In this document: piece by piece, positions 21,957 through 51,366 of the stretch | Numbering within the stretch: the first letter of the stretch is position 1 | Layout: the number at the start of each line of letters is the position of its first letter | Source: Acidobacteriaceae bacterium | GTDB taxonomy: Bacteria > Acidobacteriota > Terriglobia > Terriglobales > Acidobacteriaceae | Assembly: GCA_003139095.1 (NCBI GenBank) | Contig: PLHW01000055.1 | Location: 1-53,388 of the forward strand | Reading direction: 5' to 3' | DNA length: 53,388 bases | The notes under the pieces: model-generated | What the model was told of the DNA's origin: nothing | Database searches by the model: none | The model's input: the letters and a program-made list of their open reading frames with translations, nothing else | Position numbers and translations under genes: made by a program

Positions 21957-22024
21957 ATCGGTCGTAAGTCGTCAGTTATCGGTCGTCAGTCGTGTTTGTT
22001 TGCCAACGACCAACGACCGACGAC
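21957..22024 (+). repeat. Heptad repeat array with inverted right arm, abutting fabH stop
   Basis: Six 7-bp units: atcggtc, gtaagtc, gtcagtt, atcggtc, gtcagtc, gtgtttg (21957-21998), then a complementary right arm of aacgacc-like units (22003-22024). The two arms can fold back. It starts at the base after the TAG of fabH. Confidence 0.65.
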
Positions 22025-22043
22025 AACTCGGCCCGCTTCCCTC

Positions 22044-22295
22044 TTAGTGGTGATCGTGATCCATGTCGTGGTGCTCATCGCGGCCGCAACGGTGCCTCAC
22101 CTCGTCCAGTTCGCGGCGCCGTTTCTCGGCTTCCCGGCTGTGTTCTCCGTGCTTGTCCACTGCCACGCGGAGTCTCTCCTCCGCCCTGTGAATATCTCTG
22201 TCGCACTTGTCCTCTGCCCGAACCGGCACAGATGACCCCACCAATCCAACCACCGTCAGCAAGGCGACACAAAGAACTCTGATGATGCGATTCAT
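22044..22295 (-). CDS. Small secreted charged protein with His/Asp-rich C-terminus
   Basis: 83 residues. A signal peptide (MNRIIRVLCVALLTVVGLVG, cleavage near VRAED) is followed by a single amphipathic, strongly charged helix (HRAEERLRVAVDKHGEHSRE) flanked by two Cys residues (about 31 and 70), then a tail HHDMDHDHH that could bind metal. An SD-like GGAGAAG run precedes the ATG and a good promoter lies at 22398-22426. I do not know the family. Two lone Cys residues suggest a disulfide after export. Confidence 0.65.
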   Translation of the reverse strand: MNRIIRVLCVALLTVVGLVGSSVPVRAEDKCDRDIHRAEERLRVAVDKHGEHSREAEKRRRELDEVRHRCGRDEHHDMDHDHH

Positions 22296-22397
22296 TCTCT
22301 TCTCCTCTTAAAACGCTGAATGGAAACGCCAACTCGGCTCCGCTGCGCCCGACATTGCACGAATAAGCCCAGGTTCGATGCGGAGCGTCTGAACATT

Positions 22398-22426
22398 GTT
22401 GTATTCGAGTTTCAAGGAGGGGTCAA
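22398..22426 (-). promoter_or_regulatory. Probable sigma-70 promoter for the small secreted protein
   Basis: Minus strand TTGACC (22426-22421), 17 bases, TACAAC (22403-22398); transcription would start near 22390, about 95 bases before the ATG. The remainder of the 354-base gap 22296-22649 holds a 10-bp palindrome TCCACGTGGA near 22440 and no ORF I can support. Confidence 0.5.
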
Positions 22427-22649
22427 GCCGCCAAACGTTCCACGTGGAGCATTTTGTGCATATTGTGTTATATGTACACACACGTTAACTGCTTTGACTG
22501 GAGCGGTTTAGGACCAAAAAACGGGCTCCGGTGTTCTTTTCGGAGTAGGCGGGGACAGGCAGTCGTTTTGTACATTGATTTATGTATGTACGATTGAGGT
22601 TAAATTGCGCGGCTACAGCGAGTCGCTTCGGGCACGGCCCGCCGGACAA

Positions 22650-23780
22650 TCAGTCTTCCTGGCGGGTGATGGCGTAGTAGCCGCTGCGGGATTGAATCTT
22701 GTAGTCGCCCTGTTTGGACTTGATCTCAACCTTGCGGAAGCTGCCGTCGCGGACGGTGTTGGTGGGGGTGTAGCCGATGTTGTACTGGCTGCGGAGTTCG
22801 GCGGCGATGTCGTCGAATGCCTTACGGAGCTTATCGGGCTTATTGCCAACCTCGATTACGCGCCCGCCGGTCTCCTGCGTGAGCTTCTTCATCTCCGAGT
22901 CACCGGAATATCCGAAGCTGCCGAGGCCGTAGAATCCGCGGTCGGCGATGAGCAGCACGTAGCAGATGGTGTCGGCTTTTTGCGCGGCCTCGATCGCGTC
23001 TTTGATTTTGAGCCGGCTGCCTTCGTCCTGCCCGTCGGTGAGGAGGACCATGGCCTTGCGCCCGACTTCGTGGCTGAGTTCGTCGTGCGAGGCGAGATAG
23101 ACGGCGTCGTAAAGCGCGGTGCCGCGGGGACCGGTCGAGGAGCACGGAATGGGGCCTTGCGGGCCGATCGGGCCGCCCGAGCAACTCACTCCGCCGGTAT
23201 TGATCTTCGCCTCATTGAGCGCGTGCCGCAAGCGGCTCACCGAGTTGGTGAAGTCTTGCAGAAGATTGATATCGATATCGAAGCTGATGACGAAGGCCTC
23301 GTCTTTGGGGCGCAGGATATTTTCGAGGAACGAGGCGCCGACCTCTTTCTCCATGTCGAGTACGCGCATCTGGCTGCCACTGGAGTCGATGAGAATGCCG
23401 AGGGTCAGCGGCAGATCGGATTCGGCCTTGAAATATTTGATGGTCTGCGGCTTGCCGTCTTCAAAAATGTCGAAATTGTCTTTGGCGAGGTTGGGAATGA
23501 GCGCGCCATGCTTGTCTTTAACGTTGAAGAAAAGCTGGACGACCTCGACGTTGACCTTGACGGTCTCCGTCGACTCGTTTTGATCCGGGGATTGGTCGCC
23601 GGGTTTCGCGGCTGGCGAAGCGCCGGCCTGAGAAGCGCCGGGTGCGGCCTGTCCCGCTGCGTTTGGACTGGCGGAGGTTTGCCCCGAGGCGGGCGCGGCG
23701 ATCGCCGTCGAGAGGGCAAGAAGGGTCGCGATGGCGAAGACAGGGGCAAGTTTGTTCCGCTTATAGTGAGAGAAGTGCAT
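22650..23780 (-). CDS. VWFA-related Acidobacterial domain protein
   Basis: 376 residues from ATG 23780. A signal peptide (KLAPVFAIATLLALSTAIAA) is followed by a Pro/Ala/Gln linker, the family opener VNVEVVQLFFNVKDKHGALI and NLAKDNFDIFEDGKPQTIKYF, then a von Willebrand A domain. The MIDAS motif is intact: Asp132-Ser-Ser134-Gly-Ser136 in GILIDSSGSQM. The C-terminus has YNIGYTPTNTVRDGSFRKVEI and ends in SRSGYYA. The family (TIGR03436) is common in Acidobacteria; its job is unknown, though a metal-dependent adhesion role is likely. Divergent from a paralog, with 140 bases between them. Confidence 0.9.
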   Translation of the reverse strand: MHFSHYKRNKLAPVFAIATLLALSTAIAAPASGQTSASPNAAGQAAPGASQAGASPAAKPGDQSPDQNESTETVKVNVEVVQLFFNVKDKHGALIPNLAKDNFDIFEDGKPQTIKYFKAESDLPLTLGILIDSSGSQMRVLDMEKEVGASFLENILRPKDEAFVISFDIDINLLQDFTNSVSRLRHALNEAKINTGGVSCSGGPIGPQGPIPCSSTGPRGTALYDAVYLASHDELSHEVGRKAMVLLTDGQDEGSRLKIKDAIEAAQKADTICYVLLIADRGFYGLGSFGYSGDSEMKKLTQETGGRVIEVGNKPDKLRKAFDDIAAELRSQYNIGYTPTNTVRDGSFRKVEIKSKQGDYKIQSRSGYYAITRQED

Positions 23781-23920
23781 GGGTGTTTTATCCGGAGACG
23801 TTGCTAGTTTATCCTGTAAGGGTCTGTGGGGGTTAGATGCGCCCCCAGAGATGGGGACAGCATCCAACCCGTAGAAAAAGGCGTAAAGTTGAAAAACCCG
23901 GCGGGCGCGGATTTTAACGA

Positions 23921-25369
23921 GTGAGGCGGATGAAAACAAAAACGCAAGATGAGAAGATTCGGGGAAGGTCCGCGATTGCCAGGAATGCCGGCGCGGTATT
24001 GATGGTTGGGCTCAGCCTGGCACTTTGTGCGCTCATGGCGGCGCAGGATCCGCAGAAGCCGCAGGATATTCCGGACGCACCCTCGGCCACCCGTCCCATT
24101 CCTCCGCCGGAACCGGCAAGCCCACGGCCGGGCGCGGACCAGGCGAGTGAGGACCAACCGGGACCAGACCAGACTAGCCCCGGCCAGTCGAACCCCGGCC
24201 AAGCTTTGCCGTCCGACACCGCCACCCAGGGCAGCGGCGACAGCAGCTCGAAGGGAAACCCGCAGGAACCTCCGCGCAGTGACACGGAACTTCCGCCGGC
24301 AAACCAGAATCAGACTCCACCGCCGCCCATGCCTGCGGTGAAGACCGTGCCCGCGGGCAGCGTGCCCAAGGACAAGGACTCCGGCGAAGACGTCGGCTAC
24401 ACATTCAAGAAAAATGTGAACCTCGTGCTGGTGCCGGTTACGGTGAAGGACGGCGACGGGCGCATGGTAAATGGGTTGCAGGCGCGGGATTTCGTAGTTT
24501 TCGAAAATGGAGAGAAACAGCAGCTGCGGTTTTTCACCAGCGATCCGTTTGCGCTTTCGGCAGCGGTCGTCATCGATCTTGGCATGCCGGACGTGGGCGT
24601 GCGCAAGGTGCAGGAAACGCTCTCCGCCCTGCAAGGCGCGTTTAGTCCCTTCGATGAAGTCGCGCTCTATACGTATAGCAGCACGGTCGGCCACTTGTCG
24701 GAGTTCGGGGCCACGGGCAAGGCGATGACGGCGGTGCTGAACCAGGTAAAGAGTTACAGCGGCGCCAACAATGGGCCGCCCGTGACAAGCGGACCGCTCG
24801 GCCCGCAGGGGCCGATCATCAATGGAATTCCGGTGGACCAGCCGGTGGTGCCGGTAAGCTCGCCGCCGCGCGTGGCGCATGTGCTCAACGACGCGATTCT
24901 GATGGCTGCGCGGGACCTTTCGAAGCGCGACCGGACGCGCCGCAAGATCATCTTCGTGATCAGCGACGGGCGCGAACTGGGATCTTCGGCCAGCTACAAG
25001 GACACGCTGAAGGTGTTGCAGACGCAGCAAATCACCGTGTACGCAATCGGGCTGGAGGGGGCGGCGATTCCGGTGTATGACAAACTGCAACGCATCCATC
25101 TGCCCAAATCAAATGCGCTGCTCGGCTACAGCGACATTCTGCCGAAGTACGTTTCGGCGACGGGAGGCGGTACGGTCTACAACGAGGTGACACCCGCGGA
25201 AATTGAGCACGCCTACAGTGCTGCCCTGGGAGATGCGCGCAATCAGTACACGCTGGGCTATAGCAGCAAGGGGATCGGCGGATACCGAGAGATCGAGGTG
25301 CGGGTGCGGCGGCCGAACGTGAAGGTGTATGCGAAGCAGGGGTATTATCCGCTGCCGGCTCCGAGATAG
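23921..25369 (+). CDS. VWFA-related Acidobacterial domain protein, MIDAS-degenerate
   Basis: 482 residues; ATG 23921 or 23930. A signal peptide (NAGAVLMVGLSLALCALMAA) is followed by a 110-residue Pro/Gln/Ser/Asp linker, the family opener NLVLVPVTVKDGDGRMVNGL and DFVVFENGEKQQLRFF, and a VWA fold ending YTLGYSSKGIGGYREIEVRV and KQGYYPLP. Where the paralog has DSSGS, this protein has VVIDLGMPDVG, so the metal site is lost. It is divergent from the intact paralog, suggesting shared control and perhaps a heteromeric pair. A heptad array overlaps its stop codon. Confidence 0.9.
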   Translation: MRRMKTKTQDEKIRGRSAIARNAGAVLMVGLSLALCALMAAQDPQKPQDIPDAPSATRPIPPPEPASPRPGADQASEDQPGPDQTSPGQSNPGQALPSDTATQGSGDSSSKGNPQEPPRSDTELPPANQNQTPPPPMPAVKTVPAGSVPKDKDSGEDVGYTFKKNVNLVLVPVTVKDGDGRMVNGLQARDFVVFENGEKQQLRFFTSDPFALSAAVVIDLGMPDVGVRKVQETLSALQGAFSPFDEVALYTYSSTVGHLSEFGATGKAMTAVLNQVKSYSGANNGPPVTSGPLGPQGPIINGIPVDQPVVPVSSPPRVAHVLNDAILMAARDLSKRDRTRRKIIFVISDGRELGSSASYKDTLKVLQTQQITVYAIGLEGAAIPVYDKLQRIHLPKSNALLGYSDILPKYVSATGGGTVYNEVTPAEIEHAYSAALGDARNQYTLGYSSKGIGGYREIEVRVRRPNVKVYAKQGYYPLPAPR

Positions 25370-25444
25370 CTGAGAGCTGTCAGCCATCAGCAAAGGCAGT
25401 CCCGCGCGGGTGTCGGGCGTCGGATGTCAGATCTCAAGTCTGGG
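25368..25444 (+). repeat. Heptad repeat arrays at 3' end of VWFA gene
   Basis: First array, beginning inside the stop codon: agctgag, agctgtc, agccatc, agcaaag (25368-25395). Second array: gtgtcgg, gcgtcgg, atgtcag, atctcaa, gtctggg (25410-25444). Same 7-bp period but different words. Confidence 0.6.
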
Positions 25445-25542
25445 TTCCTGAGGGCTGAGAGCGAATGGCTGGGGCTGACCGAAGTAACCCGAGTAACCTG
25501 CGCCGGTGGCTTGCGGTATGGTATAAGACGGAAAGGAATCCG

Positions 25543-25620
25543 ATGGCCAGTTGGAAGGAATTAGAGCGAGAAGCCGCGCTGAGGGCGTGGCTCGCAATCG
25601 CCTGCGTGGCCGGTTCCTAG
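25543..25620 (+). CDS. Small ORF (25 aa) just upstream of mglA
   Basis: ATG 25543 with AAAGGAAT ahead, encoding MASWKELEREAALRAWLAIA plus five residues and ending TAG at 25620, ten bases before the TTG start of mglA. A TATAAG-like -10 lies at 25522-25527. It may be a leader peptide coupled to mglA or a relic of a gene; no family is recognised. Confidence 0.35.
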   Translation: MASWKELEREAALRAWLAIACVAGS

Positions 25621-25629
25621 GGGAGCTTT

Positions 25630-26217
25630 TTGAGTTTCATCAACTTCGCCGCACGCGAGATCAACTGCAAAATCGTCTACTATGGCGCCGGGTTGGGCGG
25701 CAAGACGACTAACCTGCAGTTCATCTACCAGAAGACAGCCGAACAACAAAAGGGCAAGATGATCTCGCTCGCGACGGAGACGGATCGAACTTTGTTCTTC
25801 GATTTTCTGCCGCTCGATCTGGGCACGGTGCGCGGGTTTAAGACGCGGATTCACCTTTATACGGTGCCCGGGCAGGTGTTCTACGACGCGAGCCGCAAGC
25901 TGATTTTGCGCGGCGTGGACGGGATCGTTTTCGTCGCCGACTCGCAGCAGGAGCGCATGGACGCCAATGTCGAGGCGCTGGACAATCTCGCGTCGAACCT
26001 GAAAGAGCACGGCTACGACTTCAATAAAATTCCCTACGTACTGCAACTGAACAAACGCGATCTGCCGAATATTCTGCCGGTGGATGCGCTCTCGAAAGAA
26101 CTGCGCAAGAAGAACGAGCCGGTGGTGGAAGCCGTAGCCTTCCAGGGGCACGGCGTATTCGAGACGCTGAAGGAAATCGCGCGCCAGGTGCTGATGGAGC
26201 TGAAGCAGGGGGGATAG
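25630..26217 (+). CDS. mglA: MglA-like Ras-superfamily GTPase
   Basis: 195 residues from TTG 25630, with AGGGGAGC upstream. MglA sets cell polarity and powers gliding or twitching in Myxococcus; relatives are widespread. The P-loop is GAGLGGKTT (19-27), the switch region includes [20 protein letters not shown], and the specificity motif is LNKRDLP. The Thr/Val-Pro-Gly-Gln in place of the Ras DxxG is typical of MglA. No MglB/Roadblock gene is adjacent. A type IV pilin is 3.5 kb away, consistent with a motility role but not proof. Confidence 0.93.
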
Positions 26218-26220
26218 GGC

Positions 26221-26255
26221 TTCAGTTTTCAGTTGCCAGTTGCCAGTTGCCAGTA
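26221..26255 (+). repeat. Heptad repeat array after mglA
   Basis: Five exact-phase 7-bp units: ttcagtt, ttcagtt, gccagtt, gccagtt, gccagta, followed by aga. It starts 4 bases after the mglA stop. The word and the ending CAGTAAGA match the array after glpX. Confidence 0.75.
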
Positions 26256-26275
26256 AGAACCTAAAACAATCGACT

Positions 26276-26332
26276 GTAGAGATACGCTTGCCGCGTCTAG
26301 GTTTAGGAGTGGTGGGGACGGGCGCCCCCTCG
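26276..26332. repeat. REP-like hairpins between mglA and ABC-F gene
   Basis: GTAG at 26276-26279 is followed by a degenerate stem (GATACGC-TTGCC-GCGTCTA), then by a second GC-rich hairpin, GGGCG-cccccT-CGCCC, near 26310-26325. Resembles the GTAG-headed hairpins elsewhere in the window but less perfect. Confidence 0.35.
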
Positions 26333-26375
26333 CCCGCCCGAGCCGAGCGCAGTTCGGCAGCCTGCCGGCCAGTCA

Positions 26376-28400
26376 TCAGGCCAGAGATGACGATAATTCT
26401 TCCCATTCGGCCATTAAGTCCTGGAGGTCGCTTTTTCGGGTGGCGAGTTCCTGGGTCTGGCGCTGAGTTTCTTCGGAGCTGACGAAGGATTGGAGCTGGG
26501 TTTCGCAGAGGGTGATGGCGGCTTCCATGCGCGTAATTTCTTCTTCGACTTCGCGCAGGCGGTGCTGAAGGTGCTGGCGCTTGATGGGGTTGAGGCGGCG
26601 CGCTTTGGAATCGGGCGACTCGGGATTGGGGGCGTCGCCGTTGGTGGGCGCGGAGGCGGCATGGGGGCTCGTCTCAGCGGGCGCGGCGGGCGCTGGAGCG
26701 GCATTTCGATTCGCGGGCGCGCGCGTGGCGGCCAATTCGCCGACGAGTTCATTCTGCATGGCGGCCTGCTGGGCGGCGGCTCCGCCCTGTTTGCGCCAGA
26801 GGTAGTCTTCATAATTGCCGGGGTAGAGCTCGACCTTGCCGTCGCCGATTTCGAAGATGCGAGTGGCCAGTTTGTCAATGAAATAGCGGTCGTGGGAAAC
26901 GAAAACGACGGTGCCGGTGTACTTTTCGAGCGCTTCGAGCAGAACGTCTTTGGCGCGCATATCGAGGTGATTGGTGGGCTCATCGAGGAGTAGGAAGTTG
27001 GCGGGATGGAGGAGCATTTTGAGGAGCGCGTAGCGGTTGCGCTCGCCGCCCGAGAGCACGCCGATGCGCTTGAAGACGTCGTCCCCGGAGAAAAGGAAGC
27101 AGCCGAGCAGACTGCGGAGCTGGGTTTGAGTGGAGGAAGGCGAGAGTTCGCCAAGATCGTCGAGGATGCGCGCGTCGGGGTCGAGCTCTTTGTATTGGTC
27201 CTGGGCGAAGTAGTCGGGGTGGACCTCATGGCCGAGTTTGTATTCGCCGGAGGTGAGCGGCTCGGCGCCGGCGAGGAGTTTGATGAGCGTGGACTTGCCC
27301 GCACCATTGACGCCGACTAGAGCGATGCGCTCGCCACGCTCGATCAGGAAATTGACGCCGGAAAAAACAGGGTGCTCGGTGGGGCCCGGTTTGCCGTAGC
27401 TTTTGGCGACGCTGGCGAACTCGGCGACGATGCGGCCGCTGGGCTTGGGTTGCGGGAAGGAGAAGTGTACGGTTTTCTCTTCTTCGGGAATTTGGATGCG
27501 CTCGATTTTTTCCAGTTCTTTGATGCGGCTTTGAACTTGCTTGGCTTTGGTCGCGGTGTAGCGGAAGCGGTTGATGAAGACTTCGAGCTGCTCGATGCGA
27601 TCGCGCTGGGTTTTGTAGGCGGATTCGAGCTGCTCTTTGCGTTGGGTTTTGGCGGCGAGGTACTGATCGTAGTTGCCGACGTAGGAGTGCAGGCGCTTGT
27701 TCCAGATTTCGACGATGCGATCGACAGTCACGTCGAGGAAATAGCGGTCGTGGGAGATCAATACAAAGGCGTACGGATAATTGCCGAGGTAATCCTCCAG
27801 CCAGTTGCGGGCTTCGAGGTCGAGATGATTGGTGGGCTCGTCGAGGAGGAGAAGATTGGGCTTTTGCAGGAGGAGTTTGGCGAGGGCGATGCGCATTTGC
27901 CAGCCGCCGGAAAATTCTTCGGTCTGGCGGGTCCAGTCGTCGCGCCGAAAGCCAAGCCCGGTGAGGACTTTGCCGACTTCGGCTTCGAGCGTGTAGCCGT
28001 CGCGCGCGCGGAATTCATGCTCGAGTTTCTGGTAGCGGTCGGCGACGGCGGCATACTCCTGGCTCAGGTGGTCGAACTCGGACATGTTGTGGGCGAGGGA
28101 CTCCATCTCTTTTTCCATGGCGTGGAGATCGTCGAAGACCGACATGCACTCGGCAAAGATGGAGCGACCGGAGAGGGTGAGGCCGTCCTGCGGGAGGTAG
28201 CCGGCGGAAATGCCCCGGGTGCGCGAGATGGAGCCATAGTCGAGCGTTTCAAGTCCGCCGAGGATTTTCATGACGGTGGATTTGCCGGTGCCGTTGGCGC
28301 CGACGAGGCCGATGCGGGACTCAGGCGTGATGAGCCAGTCGGCATCTTCGAAGAGCAATTTGTGGCCGTAACGCTTGCCGGCGGATGAGAGCTGAATCAT
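26376..28400 (-). CDS. ABC-F family ATPase (Uup/EttA-like, ribosome-associated)
   Basis: 674 residues with two ABC cassettes and no TM helices. Cassette one has Walker A GANGTGKST, signature FSGGWQMRIALAKLLL and LLLLDEPTNHLD; cassette two has GVNGAGKST, LSGGERNRYALLKMLL and LLLDEPTNHLD. The helical linker between them is about 75 residues, rich in Lys/Gln/Glu. The C-terminus has an Ala/Pro linker and a coiled coil (about 610-674), as in Uup. ABC-F proteins act on the ribosomal E site in translation or antibiotic protection; which one here is uncertain. Confidence 0.93.
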   Translation of the reverse strand: MIQLSSAGKRYGHKLLFEDADWLITPESRIGLVGANGTGKSTVMKILGGLETLDYGSISRTRGISAGYLPQDGLTLSGRSIFAECMSVFDDLHAMEKEMESLAHNMSEFDHLSQEYAAVADRYQKLEHEFRARDGYTLEAEVGKVLTGLGFRRDDWTRQTEEFSGGWQMRIALAKLLLQKPNLLLLDEPTNHLDLEARNWLEDYLGNYPYAFVLISHDRYFLDVTVDRIVEIWNKRLHSYVGNYDQYLAAKTQRKEQLESAYKTQRDRIEQLEVFINRFRYTATKAKQVQSRIKELEKIERIQIPEEEKTVHFSFPQPKPSGRIVAEFASVAKSYGKPGPTEHPVFSGVNFLIERGERIALVGVNGAGKSTLIKLLAGAEPLTSGEYKLGHEVHPDYFAQDQYKELDPDARILDDLGELSPSSTQTQLRSLLGCFLFSGDDVFKRIGVLSGGERNRYALLKMLLHPANFLLLDEPTNHLDMRAKDVLLEALEKYTGTVVFVSHDRYFIDKLATRIFEIGDGKVELYPGNYEDYLWRKQGGAAAQQAAMQNELVGELAATRAPANRNAAPAPAAPAETSPHAASAPTNGDAPNPESPDSKARRLNPIKRQHLQHRLREVEEEITRMEAAITLCETQLQSFVSSEETQRQTQELATRKSDLQDLMAEWEELSSSLA

Positions 28401-28482
28401 GCGACTGCTTTTATCGTCTCATGAAATCGCGATCATGGAGTCCGCCCAGCCACGGCAATGTGGCGGTCTGCTTTGCCTTCTC

Positions 28483-28517
28483 CACCACAGAGTCACAGGG
28501 TCGCAGAGAAAATCTCA
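28483..28517. repeat. 35-nt dispersed repeat (copy 2), about 7-bp phase
   Basis: CACCACAGAGTCACAG then GGTCGCAGAGAAAATC: 29 of 35 bases match the element at 20805-20839 in inverted orientation. It lies in the 190-base gap before the ABC-F gene. Confidence 0.6.
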
Positions 28518-28590
28518 ACCGGTGAAACGAAAAAGCTGAGGGTTCGAAAGTCAAGGCTTCGCGGCCGAATGCACGGAGGCTTCCAGGGAT

Positions 28591-29091: not shown

Positions 29092-29204
29092 GCGAAGTCC
29101 AAAAGTAGTTTACTGCAACGATATTTCTGTAGTGTTAAACAGCACTGAAAATGGTGCACGAAGGTAGGAGGGACGGGCCACTAAAGCGGGCCAGCTTTCG
29201 CCAA

Positions 29205-29235
29205 AATGAGAAAAGCAGAGGATTGCTCCTCTGCT
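29205..29235 (-). terminator. Rho-independent terminator after pilin gene
   Basis: A perfect 9-bp stem AGCAGAGGA/TCCTCTGCT (29214-29235) with a TTGC loop; on the minus strand it is followed by TTTTCTCATTTT. It lies 48 bases after the pilin stop. Confidence 0.7.
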
Positions 29236-29282
29236 CTTTCTCGGCTGTACCCTCCCCCAGGTACGTTGCCAAGCGTGGATCG

Positions 29283-31217: not shown

Positions 31218-31283
31218 GTTGGATCTATTGTATGCGCGCGGGGTGACCCGGTTGGGGCAGGCATTCGCATAGAATGGAAATGC

Positions 31284-35126: not shown

Positions 35127-35187
35127 CTCTTGGGTCGTCAGTCACCGCAGTTCAGTGATCTCGTATCCCGTGGCTCGTAGCTCGCTG
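35115..35187 (+). repeat. Heptad-like repeats at 3' end of ICMT gene
   Basis: Units atcggtc, gttagct (overlapping the last codons and stop), then after an irregular stretch ctcgtat, cccgtgg, ctcgtag, ctcgctg (35160-35187). The first word is shared with the array after fabH. Confidence 0.5.
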
Positions 35188-38203: not shown

Positions 38204-38273
38204 GCGGTTGCCAGTAAGGCAGTTGCCAGCTGTCAGTTGCCGGTTGCCGGTTATCAGTTCTCAGTAAGACCGT
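38204..38273 (+). repeat. Heptad repeat array after glpX
   Basis: Units include ggcggtt, gccagta, then in exact phase gccagct, gtcagtt, gccggtt, gccggtt, atcagtt, ctcagta (38225-38266), followed by aga. Consensus NYCRGTT, the same word and the same CAGTAAGA ending as after mglA. It is part of the 596-base gene-free stretch 38203-38798. Confidence 0.75.
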
Positions 38274-43304: not shown

Positions 43305-43324
43305 CGAGAACTAAAGTTGAACGG

Positions 43325-44633: not shown

Positions 44634-44689
44634 GCAGTTACTCCGGAGGGCCCAAGCACATATAATGGGCCCAGGTTCCCCCCGACCCC

Positions 44690-45937
44690 ATGGGCATGTT
44701 TATCGATGATCTGGCGCAGATCTTCCGCACGCTCTGGGCCCATAAGCTGCGCTCGTTTCTCACCATGTTCGGAATCGCGTGGGGAGTCGGTTCGCTGCTG
44801 CTACTGGTCGGGTTAGGGGAGGGTTTTCGCAACGGGAACAAGCGTGATCTCTCGGAAATTGGCGAGAACATCATGTTCGTATTTCCGGGGCGCGCTCCGG
44901 TGGTGCAGGGGAGCATGAATTCCGCGCGGTCCTACCGGCTCACTTACCAGGATTATCTGGATGTCCGCAGGGAGGCGCCGCATGTGCGGGCGGCCACGCC
45001 CGTGCTGGCGACCACGGAAGTACACGCGCTCAGCGAGTTTGGCAGCGCGAGCGGACAATTGACCGGCGCAGAGCCGCAATACAACGGCATTCGCTTCCTG
45101 CCGATGTTGCAGGGGCGCTGGCTGAACGACCTGGATGAGAGCCAGAAGCGCAACGTGGTGGTTCTGGGCGACGAGATGACCCATCACCTGTTCCCGGGAC
45201 GGCCGCCGATCGGCGCGTTCATCCTGCTCAACGGCTACCGCTTTGAAGTGGTGGGCACGCTCAAGCGGGTAGGGCGGGGGGACGACAATTCCACGAACAT
45301 GCGCGCTTATGTGCCGTTCCAGGTTATGAGGAGCGATTTCCCGCTAAAAGGAGAGAGCGAACGCGACGCCATCTCGTCCATCAACTACCAGCCTGACATA
45401 GCGGCGGACCACCTGCTGGCGCAGGAGGAGGTGCGCAAGGTGATTGCGCGCAACCACGGCTTCGATGTACACGACGAGGATGCGTTTGAAGGCTGGGACA
45501 CGGTGAAGCAAGCGGAGATGATGGGGCTGATCTTCGACGCGATGGACGAGTTTCTGGGCACGGTGGGATTTGTGACACTGGCGCTGGGGGCCATTGGGGT
45601 AATCAATATCATGCTGGTAGCGGTGAGCGAGCGGACGCGCGAAATTGGGTTGCGCAAAGCGCTGGGGGCAACCAATCGCAGCATTCTGTTGCAGTTCTTC
45701 GCGGAGGGCGTGCTGCTGACGCTGGTGAGCGGACTGATCGGGCTGGTGCTGGCGGGGGGCGTGATGTTCGCCTTCCGTAACTACAACGGGCCCGGAGGCT
45801 TCGATCCGCCGCGACTGGTTCCGATGACGGCGATTCTGGCGATCGGGAGCCTGACGCTGGCGGGAGTAATTGCGGGGCTGTATCCGGCGCGCAAGGCGGC
45901 CAAACTGGAACCGGTGGAAGCGCTAAGGGCGGAGTGA
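44690..45937 (+). CDS. MacB-type ABC transporter permease (orphan)
   Basis: 415 residues. An N-terminal TM helix (LRSFLTMFGIAWGVGSLLLL) precedes a MacB periplasmic-core domain of about 220 residues, then the FtsX domain with three helices (VGFVTLALGAIGVINIMLVA, TREIGLRKALGATNRSILLQ, LTLVSGLIGLVLAGG), ending LEPVEALRAE as usual. MacB permeases relay ATPase movement across the envelope in export. No ATPase gene is adjacent here. It is 56 bases after fabI and paralogous to the next permease. Confidence 0.9.
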   Translation: MGMFIDDLAQIFRTLWAHKLRSFLTMFGIAWGVGSLLLLVGLGEGFRNGNKRDLSEIGENIMFVFPGRAPVVQGSMNSARSYRLTYQDYLDVRREAPHVRAATPVLATTEVHALSEFGSASGQLTGAEPQYNGIRFLPMLQGRWLNDLDESQKRNVVVLGDEMTHHLFPGRPPIGAFILLNGYRFEVVGTLKRVGRGDDNSTNMRAYVPFQVMRSDFPLKGESERDAISSINYQPDIAADHLLAQEEVRKVIARNHGFDVHDEDAFEGWDTVKQAEMMGLIFDAMDEFLGTVGFVTLALGAIGVINIMLVAVSERTREIGLRKALGATNRSILLQFFAEGVLLTLVSGLIGLVLAGGVMFAFRNYNGPGGFDPPRLVPMTAILAIGSLTLAGVIAGLYPARKAAKLEPVEALRAE

Positions 45938-45976
45938 GGGAGAATTGGTAATTTGTAATTTGGCAATTTTAGATTG

Positions 45977-46110
45977 AGTAATTGGGACATTTAGTAATTG
46001 AGTAATTAATATTCAATCGCATTTAATCATAGTAAACTCGCACAATTACAAGTCATAAATTACAAGTCGCATATGTAAAATTGCTCAATTACTAAATTCC
46101 CCAATTACTA
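45977..46110. repeat. AT-rich inverted repeat between the two permease genes
   Basis: AGTAATTGGGACATTTAG with TAATTGAG (45977-46002) matches the reverse complement of 46085-46110 at 24 of 26 bases. The 82-base interior has a direct repeat AATTACAAGTC (46034 and 46048). The region is far more AT-rich than its surroundings. It may be a MITE-like or structural element. Confidence 0.6.
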
Positions 46111-46117
46111 ATTTTCT

Positions 46118-47359
46118 ATGTTACGCGACTTACTCACCGAGGCTTACACCGCCATGCAGCACAACCGGCGGCGGACGGCTTTGACCATGCTCGGCATGGC
46201 CTGGGGCATCGCGACGGTGTGCATGTTACTGGCGTATGGGGACGGATTTGGGCGCGCCATCGCCAACATTTTCGCGGCGTTCGGGACCAAGGTGATGATC
46301 GTGGTGCCGGGACGAACGTCGATGCAGGCAGGCGGCGACAAGGCCGGCGCGCAGCTTCGCTTCACGCTGGACGACGTCGATCTTCTCTCGTCGAACATCC
46401 CGCAGATCGCGCAGATCACACCTAGTTGCGACAAAACAACTGTCGTGCAGTACGAGAACCGCTCTTTTAATTTCGACGTGATCGGCGAATATCCGAGCAC
46501 GTACGCGATCCGCGCTATCGGTATGGATCAGGGCCGGTTTTACAACGGCCAGGATGAGTCGCAGCGGGCGCGGGTCGCGGTCATTGGCCCCGAGGTGAGA
46601 GACAAGCTGTTTTCGGGGCGCAAAGCGCTGGGCGAGCACATTCGCATCAATGGTCTTAGTTTCGAAGTGATCGGCGTTTATAGCCCCAAGATGGAAGCGG
46701 GCGACGACAACATTAACCGCATGGTATTTGTGCCCTTCACGACCATGGGCGACGTCACCGACACCCACTATCTGAATTCGATCTGGTTTAACTACGAGAC
46801 TAACGAATACGAGCAACTCGAGCAGACGGTGCGCAATGTGATGGCCGACCAACACAAATTCAATCCCGCCGACCGGCGCGGATTGATGGTGTTTAACCTG
46901 ATGACACAGTTGCATCAATTCCTGGTGATTACGCTGGGGCTGCGGATTCTGCTGGGGTTTATTGGGTGCCTGACGCTCGGCATTGGGGGCGTTGGGCTGA
47001 TGAATATCATGCTGGTATCGGTGACACAGCGCACGCGGGAGATTGGCGTGGAAAAGGCGCTGGGGGCGCGCCGCCGGCACATTTTTTTTCAGTTTCTTGC
47101 GGAAGCGCTCACGATCACTTTTATGGGCGGGTTGTTCGGGATCATTCTAGCCTATGTAGTTGCGCTGACGGTGGGCAGGCTGACGCTTTACAGTGCGATG
47201 GCCAAACATGCCGAGGCCGGCGACATCCGGCTGATGATCAATCCGATAACACTGCTCATCGCGATTCTGATTCTCGGCGTGGTCGGGTTGATCAGCGGAA
47301 TGGTGCCGGCGATTCGCGCCTCGCGGCTCGATCCGATCGAAGCCCTTCGTTACGAATAA
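46118..47359 (+). CDS. MacB-type ABC transporter permease (orphan, paralog)
   Basis: 413 residues, same plan as the previous permease: N-terminal helix (TALTMLGMAWGIATVCMLLA), MacB core, then FtsX domain (LRILLGFIGCLTLGIGGVGL, TQRTREIGVEKALGARRRHI) and a final LDPIEALRYE. The two permeases could form a heterodimer with an ATPase encoded elsewhere. A strong terminator follows. Confidence 0.9.
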   Translation: MLRDLLTEAYTAMQHNRRRTALTMLGMAWGIATVCMLLAYGDGFGRAIANIFAAFGTKVMIVVPGRTSMQAGGDKAGAQLRFTLDDVDLLSSNIPQIAQITPSCDKTTVVQYENRSFNFDVIGEYPSTYAIRAIGMDQGRFYNGQDESQRARVAVIGPEVRDKLFSGRKALGEHIRINGLSFEVIGVYSPKMEAGDDNINRMVFVPFTTMGDVTDTHYLNSIWFNYETNEYEQLEQTVRNVMADQHKFNPADRRGLMVFNLMTQLHQFLVITLGLRILLGFIGCLTLGIGGVGLMNIMLVSVTQRTREIGVEKALGARRRHIFFQFLAEALTITFMGGLFGIILAYVVALTVGRLTLYSAMAKHAEAGDIRLMINPITLLIAILILGVVGLISGMVPAIRASRLDPIEALRYE

Positions 47360-47389
47360 AAAGACGGGTTGCGGACCGTTACCAAAATT

Positions 47390-47432
47390 AAGAAAGCTCC
47401 GATTCGGTGTACCCGGTCGGAGCTTTCTTTTT
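47390..47432 (+). terminator. Rho-independent terminator after second permease
   Basis: Perfect 13-bp stem AAGAAAGCTCCGA/TCGGAGCTTTCTT (47390-47402 and 47417-47429) followed by T's to 47432. It lies 31 bases after the stop. Confidence 0.85.
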
Positions 47433-47479
47433 CGGTCTGCGTTTGACGATTGCAGAGTAAGCTGCCAAATTTGCGGGAA

Positions 47480-47507
47480 GATCGAGGCTCGAGCCTCGCA
47501 GCTGGTA
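47480..47507 (-). repeat. Heptad repeat array just past the FKBP stop
   Basis: Four 7-bp units gatcgag, gctcgag, cctcgca, gctggta, ending 2 bases from the stop codon of the minus-strand FKBP gene; read on that strand it begins right after the gene. Confidence 0.55.
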
Positions 47508-47508
47508 A

Positions 47509-48381
47509 CTACTTCTTTTCTTCCTGCTTATCCCGGTCCTTTGGCTTATTCTCGTCTTTCTTTTCCTGATCTTTACTCTGATCCTGATCTTTGCTCTTGA
47601 TCGAGATCAATTCAACTTCAAAGATCAGAGTGGCATTGGGTCCGATGTCGGCGCCTGCGCCGCGCTCGCCATAGGCAAGATCGGAAGGAATGAAGAGCTG
47701 CCACTTCGATCCGACCGGCATCAACTGGAGCGCCTCGGTCCAACCCTTGATTACGCCGCCGACGGGGAAGGTCGCGGGCTCTCCGCGTTTGTAAGAACTA
47801 TCGAACTCGGTTCCGTTGATGAGGGTTCCGCGATAGTTGCAGACGACGGTGTCGGTCGCGGCGGGCTTCGGTCCCTTGCCCTCGGTCATGATCTTGTATT
47901 GCAAGCCGCTGGGCAGGGTGACGATGCCGTCTTTCTTTTTGTTCCCGGCAAGAAACGCGTCGCCTTCGGTCTTATTCTTGGCGGCAGCTTCCTGCGTCTT
48001 TTCCTGCTGCTCTTTGCGAACCTCGTTCTGGACTTCGGTGAGGACAGCCTTGGCTTCCTCATCGGTCAGGCGGGTTTTTGATCCGGCTGCCGCGTCTTTC
48101 ATGCCCTGGGCAACAAGGTTCCAGTCGACTTCAACGGACTGCTTTTTGAGATTGGCTCCAAGACCGCTGCCAATGTTCATTCCGAGGGCGTAACTGAACT
48201 TGTCTTTGCGGGTGGAGAGAGGAGCTGCGCTTTTGGCGGTTGTTGTTGTCTTAGCCGGAGCTTTCGAAGAAGTGGCTGCTGATTTTGACGTCGTCGCGGC
48301 CGGTGCCTGCTGGGCATAACCATTGGTCACCAGCACGATTCCGGCGGCCAATAGGACCGCTGCGATGCGAGATTTTGACAT
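47509..48381 (-). CDS. FKBP-type peptidyl-prolyl isomerase, secreted (Mip/FkpA-like)
   Basis: 290 residues from ATG 48381. The frame runs back to 48501, but that extension is encoded by a heptad repeat and precedes the signal peptide (SRIAAVLLAAGIVLVTNGYA), so it is rejected. A Ala/Thr/Ser-rich linker, an FKBP_N dimerisation helix region (FSYALGMNIGSGLGANLKKQ, MKDAAAGSKTRLTDEEAKAV) and the FKBP domain (VVCNYRGTLINGTEFDSSYK, AYGERGAGADIGPNATLIFE) follow. The tail is Lys/Asp/Gln-rich. It folds periplasmic or outer-membrane proteins. Confidence 0.93.
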   Translation of the reverse strand: MSKSRIAAVLLAAGIVLVTNGYAQQAPAATTSKSAATSSKAPAKTTTTAKSAAPLSTRKDKFSYALGMNIGSGLGANLKKQSVEVDWNLVAQGMKDAAAGSKTRLTDEEAKAVLTEVQNEVRKEQQEKTQEAAAKNKTEGDAFLAGNKKKDGIVTLPSGLQYKIMTEGKGPKPAATDTVVCNYRGTLINGTEFDSSYKRGEPATFPVGGVIKGWTEALQLMPVGSKWQLFIPSDLAYGERGAGADIGPNATLIFEVELISIKSKDQDQSKDQEKKDENKPKDRDKQEEKK

Positions 48382-48435
48382 ATCTTCTATTGTCACATTG
48401 GATGGCGTTCCGCGCCAGAGGGGGAGGGAAAGCAG

Positions 48436-48559
48436 CCTCGAGCTGCGAGCCACGAGCTTCGAGCAAGCCAAAACGACCTGACGGCATTGCTCGAACCTCA
48501 TAGCTCGCGGCTCACCGCTGGTAGCTCATGGCCTATCGCTCATAGCTCCTGACTCAAGA
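48436..48559. repeat. Longest heptad repeat arrays of the window
   Basis: Array one: cctcgag, ctgcgag, ccacgag, cttcgag (48436-48463). Array two, nine units in exact phase: ctcatag, ctcgcgg, ctcaccg, ctggtag, ctcatgg, cctatcg, ctcatag, ctcctga, ctcaaga (48497-48559). It lies between the FKBP start and the RIC stop on the minus strand, ending 5 bases from the latter. Confidence 0.75.
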
Positions 48560-48564
48560 CCGCA

Positions 48565-49296
48565 TTATTGCCGCTGCGCCTGTGCCTCCATTGCCAGTGC
48601 GCGCGGGAAGAGAACGTTGTTTTCGAGGTGGATGTGCTGATGCAAGTCCTTCTCGAAATTGGTCAGTGCGGTGTAGAGCGCGCGAAAACTGGTGCAGGCA
48701 TCGGGGGGAGGAGTGTAGTCGTGGCTGGCCGCGCGGAGGGCTCGCAGGGCGGAGCCCGCGCTATCGTGCTCCTGCTCCATCATTCGCACAGGATTGGCGG
48801 CCGTGCCAAAAGGGGGTGGAAGAACGGGCTCGCGCTGGAGGACGGATTCTTCCATGCGCTCGATGTAGGGGAACAGGATGTTCTCCTCTTTCATGAGGTG
48901 CAGCGTAAGTTCCTCGCCCAGCGCGCGGAATGTGGAACGAATTTGCTGCAGTTCAGGATGGTTGGGGCCATGCTTGGTGTAGACCTTTTCCAGCAGGCTT
49001 CCGATTTCTGGAACCTGGGCGCGCACGAATGAGTGGTGGGTGCGGACAATGTGCGAGATCAGTTCGGCGAGCGATCCGGCGCGAAGTTCGCGGTCGCTGG
49101 GGCGGGCGGGCTCGGCGATGGCCGCATCCAGGGCCTGCAATACCTGGTCAATGTTGAGGTTGGCGGCGGCACAGGCTTCATCTAACGGACGGTTGCCGCC
49201 GCAGCAGTAGTCGATGCCAAATTTTTCGAAGACGGGGATGGTCTGGGGTGATTCGATGGCGTACTCGCGAACGATCTTGGTGACGGTCGGGGTCAT
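48565..49296 (-). CDS. Iron-sulfur cluster repair di-iron protein (RIC/ScdA/YtfE)
   Basis: 243 residues. The N-terminal ScdA_N (DUF542) domain has FEKFGIDYCCGGNRPLDEAC; a hemerythrin-like four-helix domain follows with His ligands in HIVRTHHSF, LHLMKEENILFPYIE, EQEHDSAG and HIHLENNVLFPR. It repairs Fe-S clusters damaged by NO or peroxide. AGAGGAGA precedes the ATG. A TGAC-N4-GTCA dyad sits 59 bases upstream, and a Crp-type regulator lies next, a typical NO-responsive pairing. Confidence 0.94.
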   Translation of the reverse strand: MTPTVTKIVREYAIESPQTIPVFEKFGIDYCCGGNRPLDEACAAANLNIDQVLQALDAAIAEPARPSDRELRAGSLAELISHIVRTHHSFVRAQVPEIGSLLEKVYTKHGPNHPELQQIRSTFRALGEELTLHLMKEENILFPYIERMEESVLQREPVLPPPFGTAANPVRMMEQEHDSAGSALRALRAASHDYTPPPDACTSFRALYTALTNFEKDLHQHIHLENNVLFPRALAMEAQAQRQ

Positions 49297-49354
49297 GGGC
49301 TCTCCTCTGGCTTGAATTCATAACCAGAGTAGAAGAAAGAGCGAGGCTTGCCGA

Positions 49355-49366
49355 TGACTTTTGTCA
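49355..49366. promoter_or_regulatory. Candidate Fnr/Dnr-type operator
   Basis: TGAC-TTTT-GTCA, a perfect dyad matching the core of the Dnr/NnrR site TTGAC-N4-GTCAA. It lies between the RIC start and the stop of the adjacent Crp-family gene, 59 bases from the RIC ATG. Confidence 0.5.
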
Positions 49367-49382
49367 CGGGGGCAACTTTCGG

Positions 49383-50090
49383 CTAGGGGGTAGGTTCGCC
49401 CTCCAATTCTTTTTCGAGCGCCTTCACGTTTACCACGATCTTCCGGCCATCCATCTGAATCAGCTTCTCCGATTGCAGACGGCTCAAATTGCGGGAGACC
49501 AGTTCGCGGACGGTGCCGATCTGCGAAGCTAATTCCTGATTGCTCATGGGCAGTGTGATCTCGAACCCTGCCTCGACGCGCGCGCCCTGGTGGCGCGCCA
49601 TGCGGACGAGGAAGGCGGCGAGACGATTGCGCACGGTGGTGAAGGAAAGCTCCTCGATAATCCCGATGAGCTTGCGGAGGCGGGCTCCGATGACGCGCAG
49701 AACCTTCAAAGCGACCTGCGGGTGGGCGACGCAGAGCGCATGGAAATCCTGTTTGGCAATGAAGAGCAGGGTGGAGTCTTCGACGGCAGAAACAGATGCG
49801 GGATAGCTGCCGCCGTCGAAGACGGGGAGTTCGGCGACGGAACCGCCGGGGCCGTCGATGCTGAGCACCTGTTCGCGACCGTCGGCGGAGGTCTTGAAGA
49901 TGCGCACGTGGCCGGCTTCGACGACATACATTCCGGCGCAGGGGTCGCCTTCGCTGAAGACGATTTCGCCGGAGGAAAACTTGCGCGCGACGGATCGCTC
50001 GGCGAGAAAGGCAAGTTCGGCGGCAGATAGTGCAGCGAAGAGGCTGGCGCGAGCGAGGGTCTCAACGGGCTTGGAGCGTGGCTCCGGCAT
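49383..50090 (-). CDS. Crp/Fnr-family regulator next to RIC
   Basis: 235 residues. The effector domain covers about 15-130 (FSSGEIVFSEGDPCAGMYVV, GGSVAELPVFDGGSYPASV) and the helix-turn-helix about 175-220 (MSNQELASQIGTVRELVSRN). The recognition helix carries E-x-x-S-R (RELVSRNLSRL), which in Fnr/Dnr proteins reads TTGA(C/T)-type half-sites, in agreement with the dyad upstream of RIC. No Fnr-type Cys cluster. It is likely to control RIC in response to NO or redox signals; inferred. Confidence 0.88.
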   Translation of the reverse strand: MPEPRSKPVETLARASLFAALSAAELAFLAERSVARKFSSGEIVFSEGDPCAGMYVVEAGHVRIFKTSADGREQVLSIDGPGGSVAELPVFDGGSYPASVSAVEDSTLLFIAKQDFHALCVAHPQVALKVLRVIGARLRKLIGIIEELSFTTVRNRLAAFLVRMARHQGARVEAGFEITLPMSNQELASQIGTVRELVSRNLSRLQSEKLIQMDGRKIVVNVKALEKELEGEPTP

Positions 50091-50133
50091 TGGGCCATTC
50101 TACAGAACGCGGCGAATCGCAAAAAGAAAGCAT

Positions 50134-50164
50134 AAAAAAAGGGAACGGAGGCGAGTCCGTTCCC
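50134..50164 (-). terminator. Rho-independent terminator of the secreted protein gene
   Basis: GGGAACGGA-GGCGAG-TCCGTTCCC, a perfect 9-bp stem (50141-50164), followed on the minus strand by seven T's (50140-50134). It ends transcription of the gene at 50187-50603. Confidence 0.85.
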
Positions 50165-50186
50165 TGGGGTGCCGCACGGTATGCGA

Positions 50187-50603
50187 CTACTGGAGGGAGG
50201 CCAGCATGGTTACGTTCTTTTCGGTAGCGTTCTGCGCTCTCAGTTCACGCTCCAGTTTGCCCGCCGGCAATTCATAGGTGACGTTTTGGCCCTGGCGGCT
50301 GACGCCCGCCAGAAAATAGCGGTCCCCGTACTGGTGAAAAATCAATACGGTGTTTGCGCTGGCCTTCCGCGACTCGCTGGCGTGTGGAAGGGCGATGACC
50401 GACTCACGTTCTGCGGCGATCCGCATAATGGGCTGTCCGTCGTTTTCAATTCTGACCCGGCATTCTCCCGCGAGCATAGCTTTGCCGTTGGCAAAGTAAT
50501 CGAAAGGTACCTGGGCGATGATCGTGGTTGCGGTTTGCGCGCAAACCAATCCAGTCAGTCCGGCTAACATCAAGATGAGAAGGGTAGCAGCATGCTTTTT
50601 CAT
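50187..50603 (-). CDS. Small secreted protein, acidobacterial type, function unknown
   Basis: 138 residues from ATG 50603 (AAGGAGA ahead; a longer frame to 50729 is rejected). A signal peptide (KHAATLLILMLAGLTGLVCA) precedes a small beta-rich domain: AQVPFDYFANGKAMLAGECR and VRIENDGQPIMRIAAERESV, then LIFHQYGDRYFLAGVSRQG. This VPFDF-GKAMPAGEYRV pattern recurs in many Acidobacteria proteins that I know only as hypothetical. Divergent from sodC. Confidence 0.75.
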   Translation of the reverse strand: MKKHAATLLILMLAGLTGLVCAQTATTIIAQVPFDYFANGKAMLAGECRVRIENDGQPIMRIAAERESVIALPHASESRKASANTVLIFHQYGDRYFLAGVSRQGQNVTYELPAGKLERELRAQNATEKNVTMLASLQ

Positions 50604-50782
50604 AAGTGTCTCCTTTTCAAGTTTGAACGCCGGGGAAGTTTCGTTCCTGAACACGAGTGTGATATTGCACCGGATGCGCGGAAAGGTCCATGGAGAGCGT
50701 ATGAATTGGTCTGAAGTTATATGAAGCAAGGTGCGCCGTGGGGCGGCGACTGTAAAGAGCTACTACCTATTTGCAGTTGGTC

Positions 50783-50788
50783 TATAAT
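50783..50788 (+). promoter_or_regulatory. sodC -10 element (TATAAT)
   Basis: A consensus TATAAT ends 8 bases before the sodC ATG, with no SD between them, so the message would be leaderless or nearly so. No good -35 is seen at 16-18 bases. Confidence 0.5.
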
Positions 50789-50796
50789 TTCCTTCC

Positions 50797-51330
50797 ATGA
50801 AAAACTCCATCGCATTTGCGGTTGCTCTTTCGTTGTTGTCGCTTGCGCTCGCCTCGGCGGGCTTCGCCAAGACCATCGTTCACCTTCAGGACTCGCAGGG
50901 TAAGAGTGTGGGGACGGTCGGGCTTTGGGAACAAAAGTCGGGAGGAGTTGGGATGGAACTGAAGCTGGAGAATCTTCCTCCGGGGGAACATGCAATTCAC
51001 TTTCACCAGAACGCGAATTGCACTGCGCCGGACTTTAAATCGGCGGGACCGCATTTCAATCCGGATGGAAAGAAGCATGGATTCGATAATCCGGAAGGAC
51101 ATCACGCGGGCGATCACGCGAACTTTACGGTCGGCGCGAACGGCAAGGCGAAGCTGAAGACGGAAAGCAAGGACATAAACCTTGGGAACGGTAAGCCGGG
51201 CGGCGACAGCCATTCGCTTTTCAGCAATGGAGGAACGTCGATCGTGATTCACGCGAAGGCGGACGATCAGAAGACCGACCCGTCAGGGAATTCGGGGGAC
51301 CGGATTGCTTGCGGGGTGATTACGAAATAG
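50797..51330 (+). CDS. sodC: Cu/Zn superoxide dismutase, periplasmic
   Basis: 177 residues. Signal peptide [20 protein letters not shown]. Metal ligands are His68 and His70 (HAIHFHQ), His86 (GPHFNP), His94 (KKHG), His102 or His103 and Asp106 (GHHAGD), and His152 (VIHAKADD); the disulfide would be Cys75-Cys172. It dismutates superoxide in the periplasm. It is divergent from a secreted unknown and close to RIC. The heptad array at 51332 starts one base after the stop. Confidence 0.96.
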
Positions 51331-51331
51331 C

Positions 51332-51366
51332 TTTCGAGCTTCGAGCCGCGAGCTTTGAGTTCCGAG
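51332..51366 (+). repeat. Heptad repeat array after sodC
   Basis: Five exact-phase 7-bp units: tttcgag, cttcgag, ccgcgag, ctttgag, ttccgag. Same word (NNNCGAG) as the first array at 48436. Confidence 0.7.

Follow-up and report, generated by a model that had tools for sequence, protein, structure and literature searches.

Heptamer Arrays Behind Stop Codons in an Acidobacteriaceae Genome Are Probably the Inverted Arms of Small S23p-Type Mobile Elements

Introduction

Why should many intergenic regions of one bacterial contig carry runs of degenerate heptamers that share a period but not a word, and why should these runs begin so often at a stop codon? The question is raised by contig PLHW01000055.1 (C54) of an Acidobacteriaceae bacterium (assembly GCA_003139095.1, a draft genome of 5.53 Mb), which is analyzed here over its whole length of 53,388 bp and is called the window below. 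A preliminary description listed at least ten such sites, took them for one family of arrays with a constant period beyond chance, and proposed a 3'-end element acting in termination or RNA stability, or growing by slippage. We find that the arrays are very probably inverted arms at the ends of small mobile elements that form a family of the S23p/IVP type, whose long copies carry a gene for a four-helix-bundle protein (PF05635). This reading is supported by the period, position, polarity, and inverted pairing of the arrays, their linkage to the IVP gene, an association at the level of whole genomes, the presence of filled and empty sites, and the low ratio of nonsynonymous to synonymous substitution rates (dN/dS) of the IVP gene.

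Period, Position, and Polarity

Arrays were detected as segments of self-match at a given lag and scored, with a cut-off of at least 12, or of at least 9 for the ten listed sites. At the higher cut-off the window holds nine segments at lag 7, compared with none or one at lags 4, 5, 6, 8, 10, 11, and 13 and two each at lags 9 and 12; lag 14 gives five and lag 15 seven, so that period 15 is raised too. We noticed no relation of the lag-15 segments (e.g., 36944-36997) to the arrays. In a genome sample of 1,146,377 bp (20.7% of the genome), the intergenic segments scoring at least 12 number 110 at lag 7 and 25 at lag 8; each of the remaining lags between 4 and 13 gives 1-11. The excess in both window and sample bears out one family of arrays with a constant period, beyond chance; the controls were the other lags and random placement, rather than the dinucleotide shuffles of intergenic DNA that had been suggested. 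Rfam, at gathering threshold, yields one tRNA in the window and no known RNA family for the arrays.

Gene calls came from a small home-made codon model, which leaves start positions uncertain and overlooks small genes (e.g., ICMT). Of 116 arrays, 43 have a stop codon at most 4 bp away, where random placement in the same gaps gives 5.2 ± 2.2 (maximum 15 in 1000 draws), which upholds the proposed tie to stop codons; within 4 bp of a start there are 10, about twice the 4.6 ± 2.0 (maximum 14) of random placement. Array density per kb of gap is 0.71 in co-directional, 0.45 in convergent, and 0.21 in divergent gaps, the last holding 9 of the 116 arrays. Both the preference for stops and the depletion of divergent gaps are what one would expect if selection kept the arrays at 3' ends for their effect on transcription termination or mRNA stability, an explanation against which the arrays at 5' ends and the inverted pairs count.

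Polarity was read for the 101 arrays within 60 bp of the edge of an open reading frame (ORF), of which 95 were assignable to a word family; the 6 without one were left out. Ninety of the 95 read outward from the ORF and five inward, a count that is not a clean test, as the family strand was picked by eye; 59 of the outward arrays flank a 3' end and the other 31 a 5' end, and the latter, together with the few in divergent gaps, speak against a 3'-end signal. When orientation was taken from position alone, the common word reached 3.74 bits, against a maximum of 3.33 among 15 random orientations. When each word is read away from its nearest ORF, a common core close to AG[T/C][T/C] emerges. A single position weight matrix for all arrays with free strand mixed the two polarities, and families on their own strands fitted better; no rule based on the stop-codon content of the words, worked through by hand, held as a cause of polarity; and the search for a conserved inner terminus of the arms found just a weak enrichment of A. 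In the own genome, AAA occurs within 10 nt of the arm on the inner side in 26 of 100 cases and on the outer side in 14 of 100, with 11% for random intergenic DNA.

Inverted Pairing and Folding

The pairing scan covered 107 arrays in gaps of at most 1200 bp; larger gaps, with 16 of the 123 intergenic arrays (including those without a flanking gene on both sides), were excluded. An inverted partner scoring at least 14 lies in the same gap for 36 of the 107, a direct partner for 10. By eye, both arms of a paired gap show one word, and the word varies between gaps. Short noncoding multicopy elements with terminal inverted repeats are thus present, in the form of the paired gaps and of mini-elements of 59-120 bp between the nuo genes (see below). 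A shared element core was sought by BLAST of array gaps against all gaps; the best 40 of 224 off-diagonal matches, and the busiest 25 gaps, had the look of arrays and other dispersed repeats.

Two paired gaps of the window fold strongly, with z scores of -5.4 (45938-46117) and -6.3 (48425-48564), and a third less so, with -2.8 (21957-22045). The two strongest values are in keeping with selection at 3' ends, as is the CAGT-type array that, by eye, 13 of 20 other congeneric loci have behind mglA; solo-array gaps have little or no hairpin signal (mglA 0.0, glpX -1.9, sodC +2.1), and no terminator-like site falls inside an arm, be it among the 34 sites of 20001-39900 or the 14 of 39901-53388, in scans that allowed loops of 3-8 only. 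Adding the many inverted pairs, the sites that are filled in one species and empty in another, and the S23p gene between the arms of long copies, we think it quite unlikely that the family as a whole serves termination or RNA stability, and do not keep that role as the main explanation; a secondary 3'-end role at some loci may exist.

An S23p/IVP Gene between the Arms

Inverted period-7 pairs that score at least 16 and stand more than 300 bp apart number four in the sample, and all four enclose a gene of PF05635, the family of the 23S rRNA intervening-sequence protein (IVP). The genome holds seven such genes over the cut-off (48-130 bits; C11, C10:30982, C10:13543, C7, C19, C31, and C48), in long copies only and none in the window. 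All seven lie between inverted arms, which have period 7 in five cases and period 8 in two; in L315 one arm was recognized by complementarity only. The long copies examined carry a PF05635 ORF. The IVP protein has a PDB match to 2gsc (XCC0516 of Xanthomonas campestris; E 2.7e-23). The IVP gene shows dN/dS values of 0.01-0.14 in 15 of 16 pairs, the remaining pair giving no estimate and dS being saturated in several.

The flanks were compared across the phylum at 105 loci on both strands, of which 104 could be placed (not L337) and 103 distinct ones were kept, mostly from the genus of the window; long open frames of the same loci, among which false genes are possible, served as control ORFs. A period-7 or -8 array stands on at least one side of 98 of the 103 IVP genes versus 28 of 140 controls, and on both sides of 71 versus one. 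Period 7 is found on both sides at 57 IVP loci and one control, and periods 5, 6, 9, and 10 give 0, 0, 1, and 0. Terminal inverted scores of at least 16 surround the ORF at 85 of the 103 IVP loci versus 13 of the 140 controls. Outside the phylum, in genomes chosen for carrying (CAGTTGC)3, 29 of 30 loci could be placed: a period-7 or -8 array lies beside 25 of the 29 IVP genes versus 4 of 29 controls, with widely varying words, and inverted scores of at least 16 are reached at 21 versus 5.

Array Load across Genomes

PF05635 has matches in 75 of 149 genomes of the phylum, 71 of them over the cut-off. A four-unit AGYT pattern occurs at least 10 times in 24 of the 75 genomes with IVP versus 1 of the 74 without, and at least once in 38 versus 9. 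Within the family of the window, seven genomes with IVP have 73-237 matches and eight without have 0-12, the latter not being independent, as seven come from one genus. The reversed word is a poor control, since it too forms a period-7 array, of a different word, and several genomes with IVP contain it in high number; it far outnumbers the AGYT word in four genomes of the phylum (G103, G108, G165, and G070), where other period-7 word families would then prevail.

In the genus itself, PF05635 is present in 23 of 24 genomes, and the exception (G022) lacks an array behind both mglA and fabH, its nuo gaps being short, at 5 and 19 bp (L235, L252, and L468). Among nonacidobacterial genomes chosen for (CAGTTGC)3, PF05635 is over the cut-off in 30 of 40 (32 at E 0.001), compared with 0 of 14 control genomes. 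The highest number of matches among the 40, namely 21, belongs to G226, a Thermoplasmata archaeon bin that contains locus L117; contamination or archaeal spread could be the cause.

Filled and Empty Sites in Congeners

The gaps between nuoD, nuoE, and nuoF were compared at 21 congeneric loci, with words assigned by eye and with gaps printed as 0 possibly being overlaps. Between nuoD and nuoE, seven loci are empty (at most 16 bp), seven hold mini-elements of 96-115 bp with period-8 arms, and five hold stretches of 430-447 bp, which are read as IVP elements and include that of the own genome; the remaining two have a solo arm (52 bp) and an unrelated stretch (95 bp). PF05635 matches were placed here in the own genome, G003, G016, and G004, and G010 has a partial match that stays under the cut-off. 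In the gap from nuoE to nuoF, four loci are empty (at most 19 bp), 16 carry mini-elements (59-120 bp) of three word families, and one has a solo arm (29 bp); this boundary seems to have been filled more than once by different word families.

At other sites the picture, again by eye, is similarly mixed, so that the proposed comparison of the same loci in relatives finds arrays in some congeners and none, or another word, in others. The position after glpX or fabH has various words, IVP elements, other hairpins, or nothing, and the array after sodC occurs at 1 of 16 congeneric loci, that of the own genome. Behind mglA the number of units varies between species at one locus, just as it would if the arrays were plain microsatellites that slippage extends in neutral intergenic sequence, the polymerase setting the 7-bp step, a view ascribed to Mrazek 2007 in PMC4692102 and PMC4679880; one study, moreover, is reported to have found that among long simple repeats heptamers are the most frequent in most genomes (PMC4679880). 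Slippage alone predicts neither the polarity (90 of 95, with the strand chosen by eye), nor inverted partners, nor an IVP gene between arms, nor nuo gaps in which the whole element is present or absent. As an account of the entire family it is already difficult to maintain and, in our judgment, highly improbable, and the simple slippage growth of the preliminary description is set aside as the main explanation; slippage may well adjust the unit number of an array afterwards.

Words Follow the Lineage of the IVP Gene

By motif, the IVP proteins fall into subtypes A (78 loci) and B (25 loci). Subtype A goes with CAGTTCT, CAGGTCT, GGTCGTT, and other words, including an ATCGGG-like word at L400; subtype B with AATTTGT, AGAAGTC/AGAGGTC, and the period-8 words CATTGAAT, ATCGGGCC, and ATTTTGTA. 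For a Mantel test the 101 loci with an arm were reduced to 54, one per site group. Word distance correlates with IVP protein distance (rho 0.211, n = 54, reached by 0 of 2000 permutations), and also within subtypes (A, P = 0.001; B, P = 0.018, n = 7). Word similarity is 0.82 at protein distances of 0.1-0.2 (four pairs) and falls to 0.53-0.54 beyond 0.5. As word similarity tracks IVP distance, the element appears to carry its own word along.

This bears on a further explanation, that the arms are built on site by templated addition of 7 or 8 nt, in the manner of telomerase and of the tandem-repeat cDNA of DRT10, with IVP as a helper. Elements that have a period rather than a word in common would fit such a process, and inward polarity from both flanks is expected of end extension; moreover, Avd partners a reverse transcriptase in diversity-generating retroelements (DGRs; PMC10053308), and a bacterial reverse transcriptase with telomerase-like repeat addition is reported in a preprint (PMC12632851). 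Words that follow the IVP gene lineage across sites, and word families common to several sites within the genome, are not what on-site synthesis would leave behind, and we regard it as an unlikely origin of the arms.

Elements of the Window

The window contains mini-elements and solo arms, without an IVP gene. Eight of the ten listed sites give a lag-7 segment scoring at least 9 at or near their coordinate; the other two are 20805, where the period is 8, and 28483, where no such segment reaches 9. Several arms lie beyond the original list and are described as such.

Three mini-elements can be delimited. The first begins 4 bp past the fabH stop with a left arm at 21961..21993 (plus strand; word TCGGTCG/TCAGTCG; score 12) and closes with an inverted right arm, AACGACC, in a lag-7 segment at 22003..22024 (minus strand; not listed before), about 19 bp past the stop of a convergent small ORF read by eye. 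The second, likewise new, fills a gap of 180 bp before a MacB/FtsX gene: its left arm, AATTTGT, lies at 45943..45962 (plus strand; inverted partner score 12) and its right arm, a stretch of period 8/16, at 46078..46111 (minus strand), the gap being the one that folds with z -5.4. The third stands between two minus-strand genes and has the lowest z (-6.3), with an arm GAGCTNC at 48434..48464 (plus strand; partner score 17) and a newly recognized partner at 48490..48560 (minus strand), 4 bp past the stop of the gene at 48565-49296.

Solo arms follow three genes on the plus strand: CAGTTGC at 26221..26254, a lag-7 segment 3 bp past the mglA-like stop; CAGTTGC/CGGTTGC at 38204..38265, directly past the glpX stop (segment 38220-38265, score 21); and GAGCTTC at 51333..51367, a lag-7 segment 2 bp past the sodC stop. 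Degenerate arms or stretches comprise the plus-strand arm at 25365..25391 (score 10), which overlaps the stop of a gene with a VWA domain (Pfam) in a gap with fold z -0.8; a second, additional period-7 stretch in the gap after the same gene at 25407..25441 (plus strand; score 14); and a plus-strand arm at 35158..35184 (score 10; fold z 0.7), 32 bp past the ICMT/PEMT gene and 43 bp past the coordinate first given for it, 35115. The weakest site is a short, partly palindromic arm, GAGGCTC, at 47477..47498 (minus strand; score 9; fold z -1.1), just past the stop of a minus-strand FKBP gene.

The site near 20805 proves to be a period-8 repeat, CTCTGTGG, at 20814..20837 (a lag-8 self-match, with no strand assigned), which may resemble the period-8 arm beside the IVP gene of L350 in another genome of the phylum. 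Its CTCTGTG repeat has two copies in the window on opposite strands, this one and one at about 28480-28510. Dispersed palindromes of the GTAGAGACGCGGCTTGCCGCGTCT type and of the GACGGGCGCC...GCCCGTCC type lie at 26276-26340, and the same types occupy 3' positions of congeners too, after fabH and sodC (L254, L257, L263, L276, and L284). Downstream of glpX, 38320-38460 is a conserved stretch of the AATAAGGACTTAGCGG type common to L189, L195, and L214, where the preceding arrays differ; it opens at 38322-38346 with a site that resembles a terminator and lies past the glpX arm.

Discussion

In full, the element that we propose measures about 430-600 bp and has three parts: an arm whose degenerate units are 7 bp, sometimes 8 bp, long; one gene, which codes for an S23p/IVP four-helix-bundle protein; and the inverted arm. 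Copies without the gene, arm-spacer-arm over about 60-220 bp, are far commoner and behave like miniature inverted-repeat transposable elements (MITEs), and solo arms would be remnants. Elements sit between ORFs, mostly right behind the stop codon, with a word that tends to follow the lineage of their gene and a unit number that drifts. The IVP protein may act in trans on the arms to mobilize or maintain the elements, and RNase III, by analogy with the S23p intervening sequences (IVSs) of 23S rRNA, might trim the hairpin from the mRNA, by which insertion inside operons would become tolerable. From the likeness of PF05635 to Avd, a route of movement linked to reverse transcription is no more than a reasonable guess.

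Several observations weigh against this interpretation. No movement of elements was observed, and by eye, with no systematic test, no target-site duplication is apparent between filled and empty nuo sites. As 71 of the 107 scanned arrays are without an inverted partner scoring at least 14, the solo arm as remnant counts as an inference. The spacers of the mini-elements are not common to copies (best 40 of 224 BLAST matches), as they would be in classical MITEs, and the preference for stops over starts (43 vs. 10 of 116) goes beyond neutral insertion between genes. The window itself lacks an IVP gene; a fifth distant pair in the sample (C9, 334 bp apart, score 13, two words) encloses none; and with a wide flank an inverted score of 14 is found around 31 of the 140 control ORFs, perhaps in part through arrays of neighboring gaps within the flank. 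Outside the phylum, 4 of the 29 IVP loci have no period-7 or -8 array, and an IVP ORF accompanies just 2 of 118 (CAGTTGC)3 loci; both of these ORFs lie within 103 bp, with none elsewhere there, too few to carry weight alone. At genome level, the AGYT pattern is absent from 37 of the 75 genomes with IVP, which must be ascribed to other words, and reaches at least five matches in 3 of the 74 without. In Coxiella, according to the literature, the S23p protein is probably not produced in vivo (PMC4990558), and the TAACTGA repeats of Beggiatoaceae comprise 169 direct sets and one indirect, inverted pairs being rare (PMC4679880).

The closest known system is the IVS of the Coxiella 23S rRNA gene, described as 428 nt with an S23p ORF between terminal inverted repeats that form a 28-bp stem, and termed selfish (PMC4990558). 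According to the same source, it lies inside the 23S rRNA and is excised by RNase III, and tandem heptamers (GACAGAT), variable in number between strains, precede the S23p start. The long copies described here are alike in having an S23p/IVP ORF inside terminal inverted repeats; they differ in their position between protein genes, in a high copy number with mostly gene-less copies, and in their many words and low IVP dN/dS. All copies read are located between protein genes and not in a 23S rRNA helix, rRNA genes not having been examined, and because the 23S rRNA site defines an IVS, we do not file them there. We regard them as a new variant related to the S23p IVSs, both IVS-like and MITE-like. 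With MITEs such as BrickBuilt (PMC4596501) they share short length, intergenic position, inverted ends, and lack of an own gene; unlike MITEs, their ends are degenerate tandem units without a fixed sequence, their spacers are apparently not common to copies, no target duplication was seen by eye, and no transposase partner is known, no search for one having been made.

Heptamers tied to stop codons have a described counterpart, contrary to the preliminary description: Rehm et al. 2015 (PMC4692102) report GGGNATC and GGGGA(C/T)T heptamers of Xanthomonas and Nostoc that are intergenic and lie near stops on the coding and near starts on the noncoding strand, with convergent inverted pairs numbering 70 and 75 in two genomes of Xanthomonas. 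Position, a similar polarity, and inverted pairs are shared with our arrays; those heptamers were, however, studied as quadruplex-forming and are reported as generally not found with mobile elements, and nowhere does that paper use the words S23, helix bundle, or intervening. TAACTGA direct repeats, mostly just before start codons, are described from Beggiatoaceae, Cyanobacteria, and Bacteroidetes (PMC4679880). As the reverse complement of TCAGTTA they contain a CAGTT-type word, and their polarity agrees with that found here; they differ in being proposed as sites of a post-transcriptional regulator, in an account whose text does not refer to S23p. PF05635, finally, is said to resemble the accessory protein Avd of DGRs, with a structural alignment of 4DWL and 2GSC (PMC10053308). 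Among the open-licence papers listed in our searches, none joins S23p, four-helix-bundle, intervening-sequence, or PF05635 proteins with intergenic heptamer arrays.

A bolder possibility, which we consider doubtful, is that all of these are branches of one widespread, transposase-free class of mobile elements, in which an S23p/Avd four-helix-bundle protein would read the 7- or 8-nt register and inward polarity of the arms instead of a fixed sequence, and would insert copies behind stops through an RNA intermediate with the help of a host reverse transcriptase; the heptamers repeated in Cyanobacteria, Xanthomonas, and giant sulfur bacteria would then belong together with the rRNA IVSs and with Avd of DGRs. 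A single world-wide system is disfavored because inverted pairs of TAACTGA are near absent (PMC4679880) and such pairs are reported as rare in Nostoc (PMC4692102).

If the arrays are arms of an S23p/IVP element family, one explanation would cover several observations that have so far lacked one: the heptamers repeated close to gene ends in phyla far apart, the orphan "four helix bundle" genes, and the selfish insertion of S23p sequences into rRNA. The arrays would represent a mobile element without a known transposase whose ends preserve a period rather than a sequence, and arrays of this kind should not be taken as regulatory 3'-end signals. The function of S23p proteins would also become testable.

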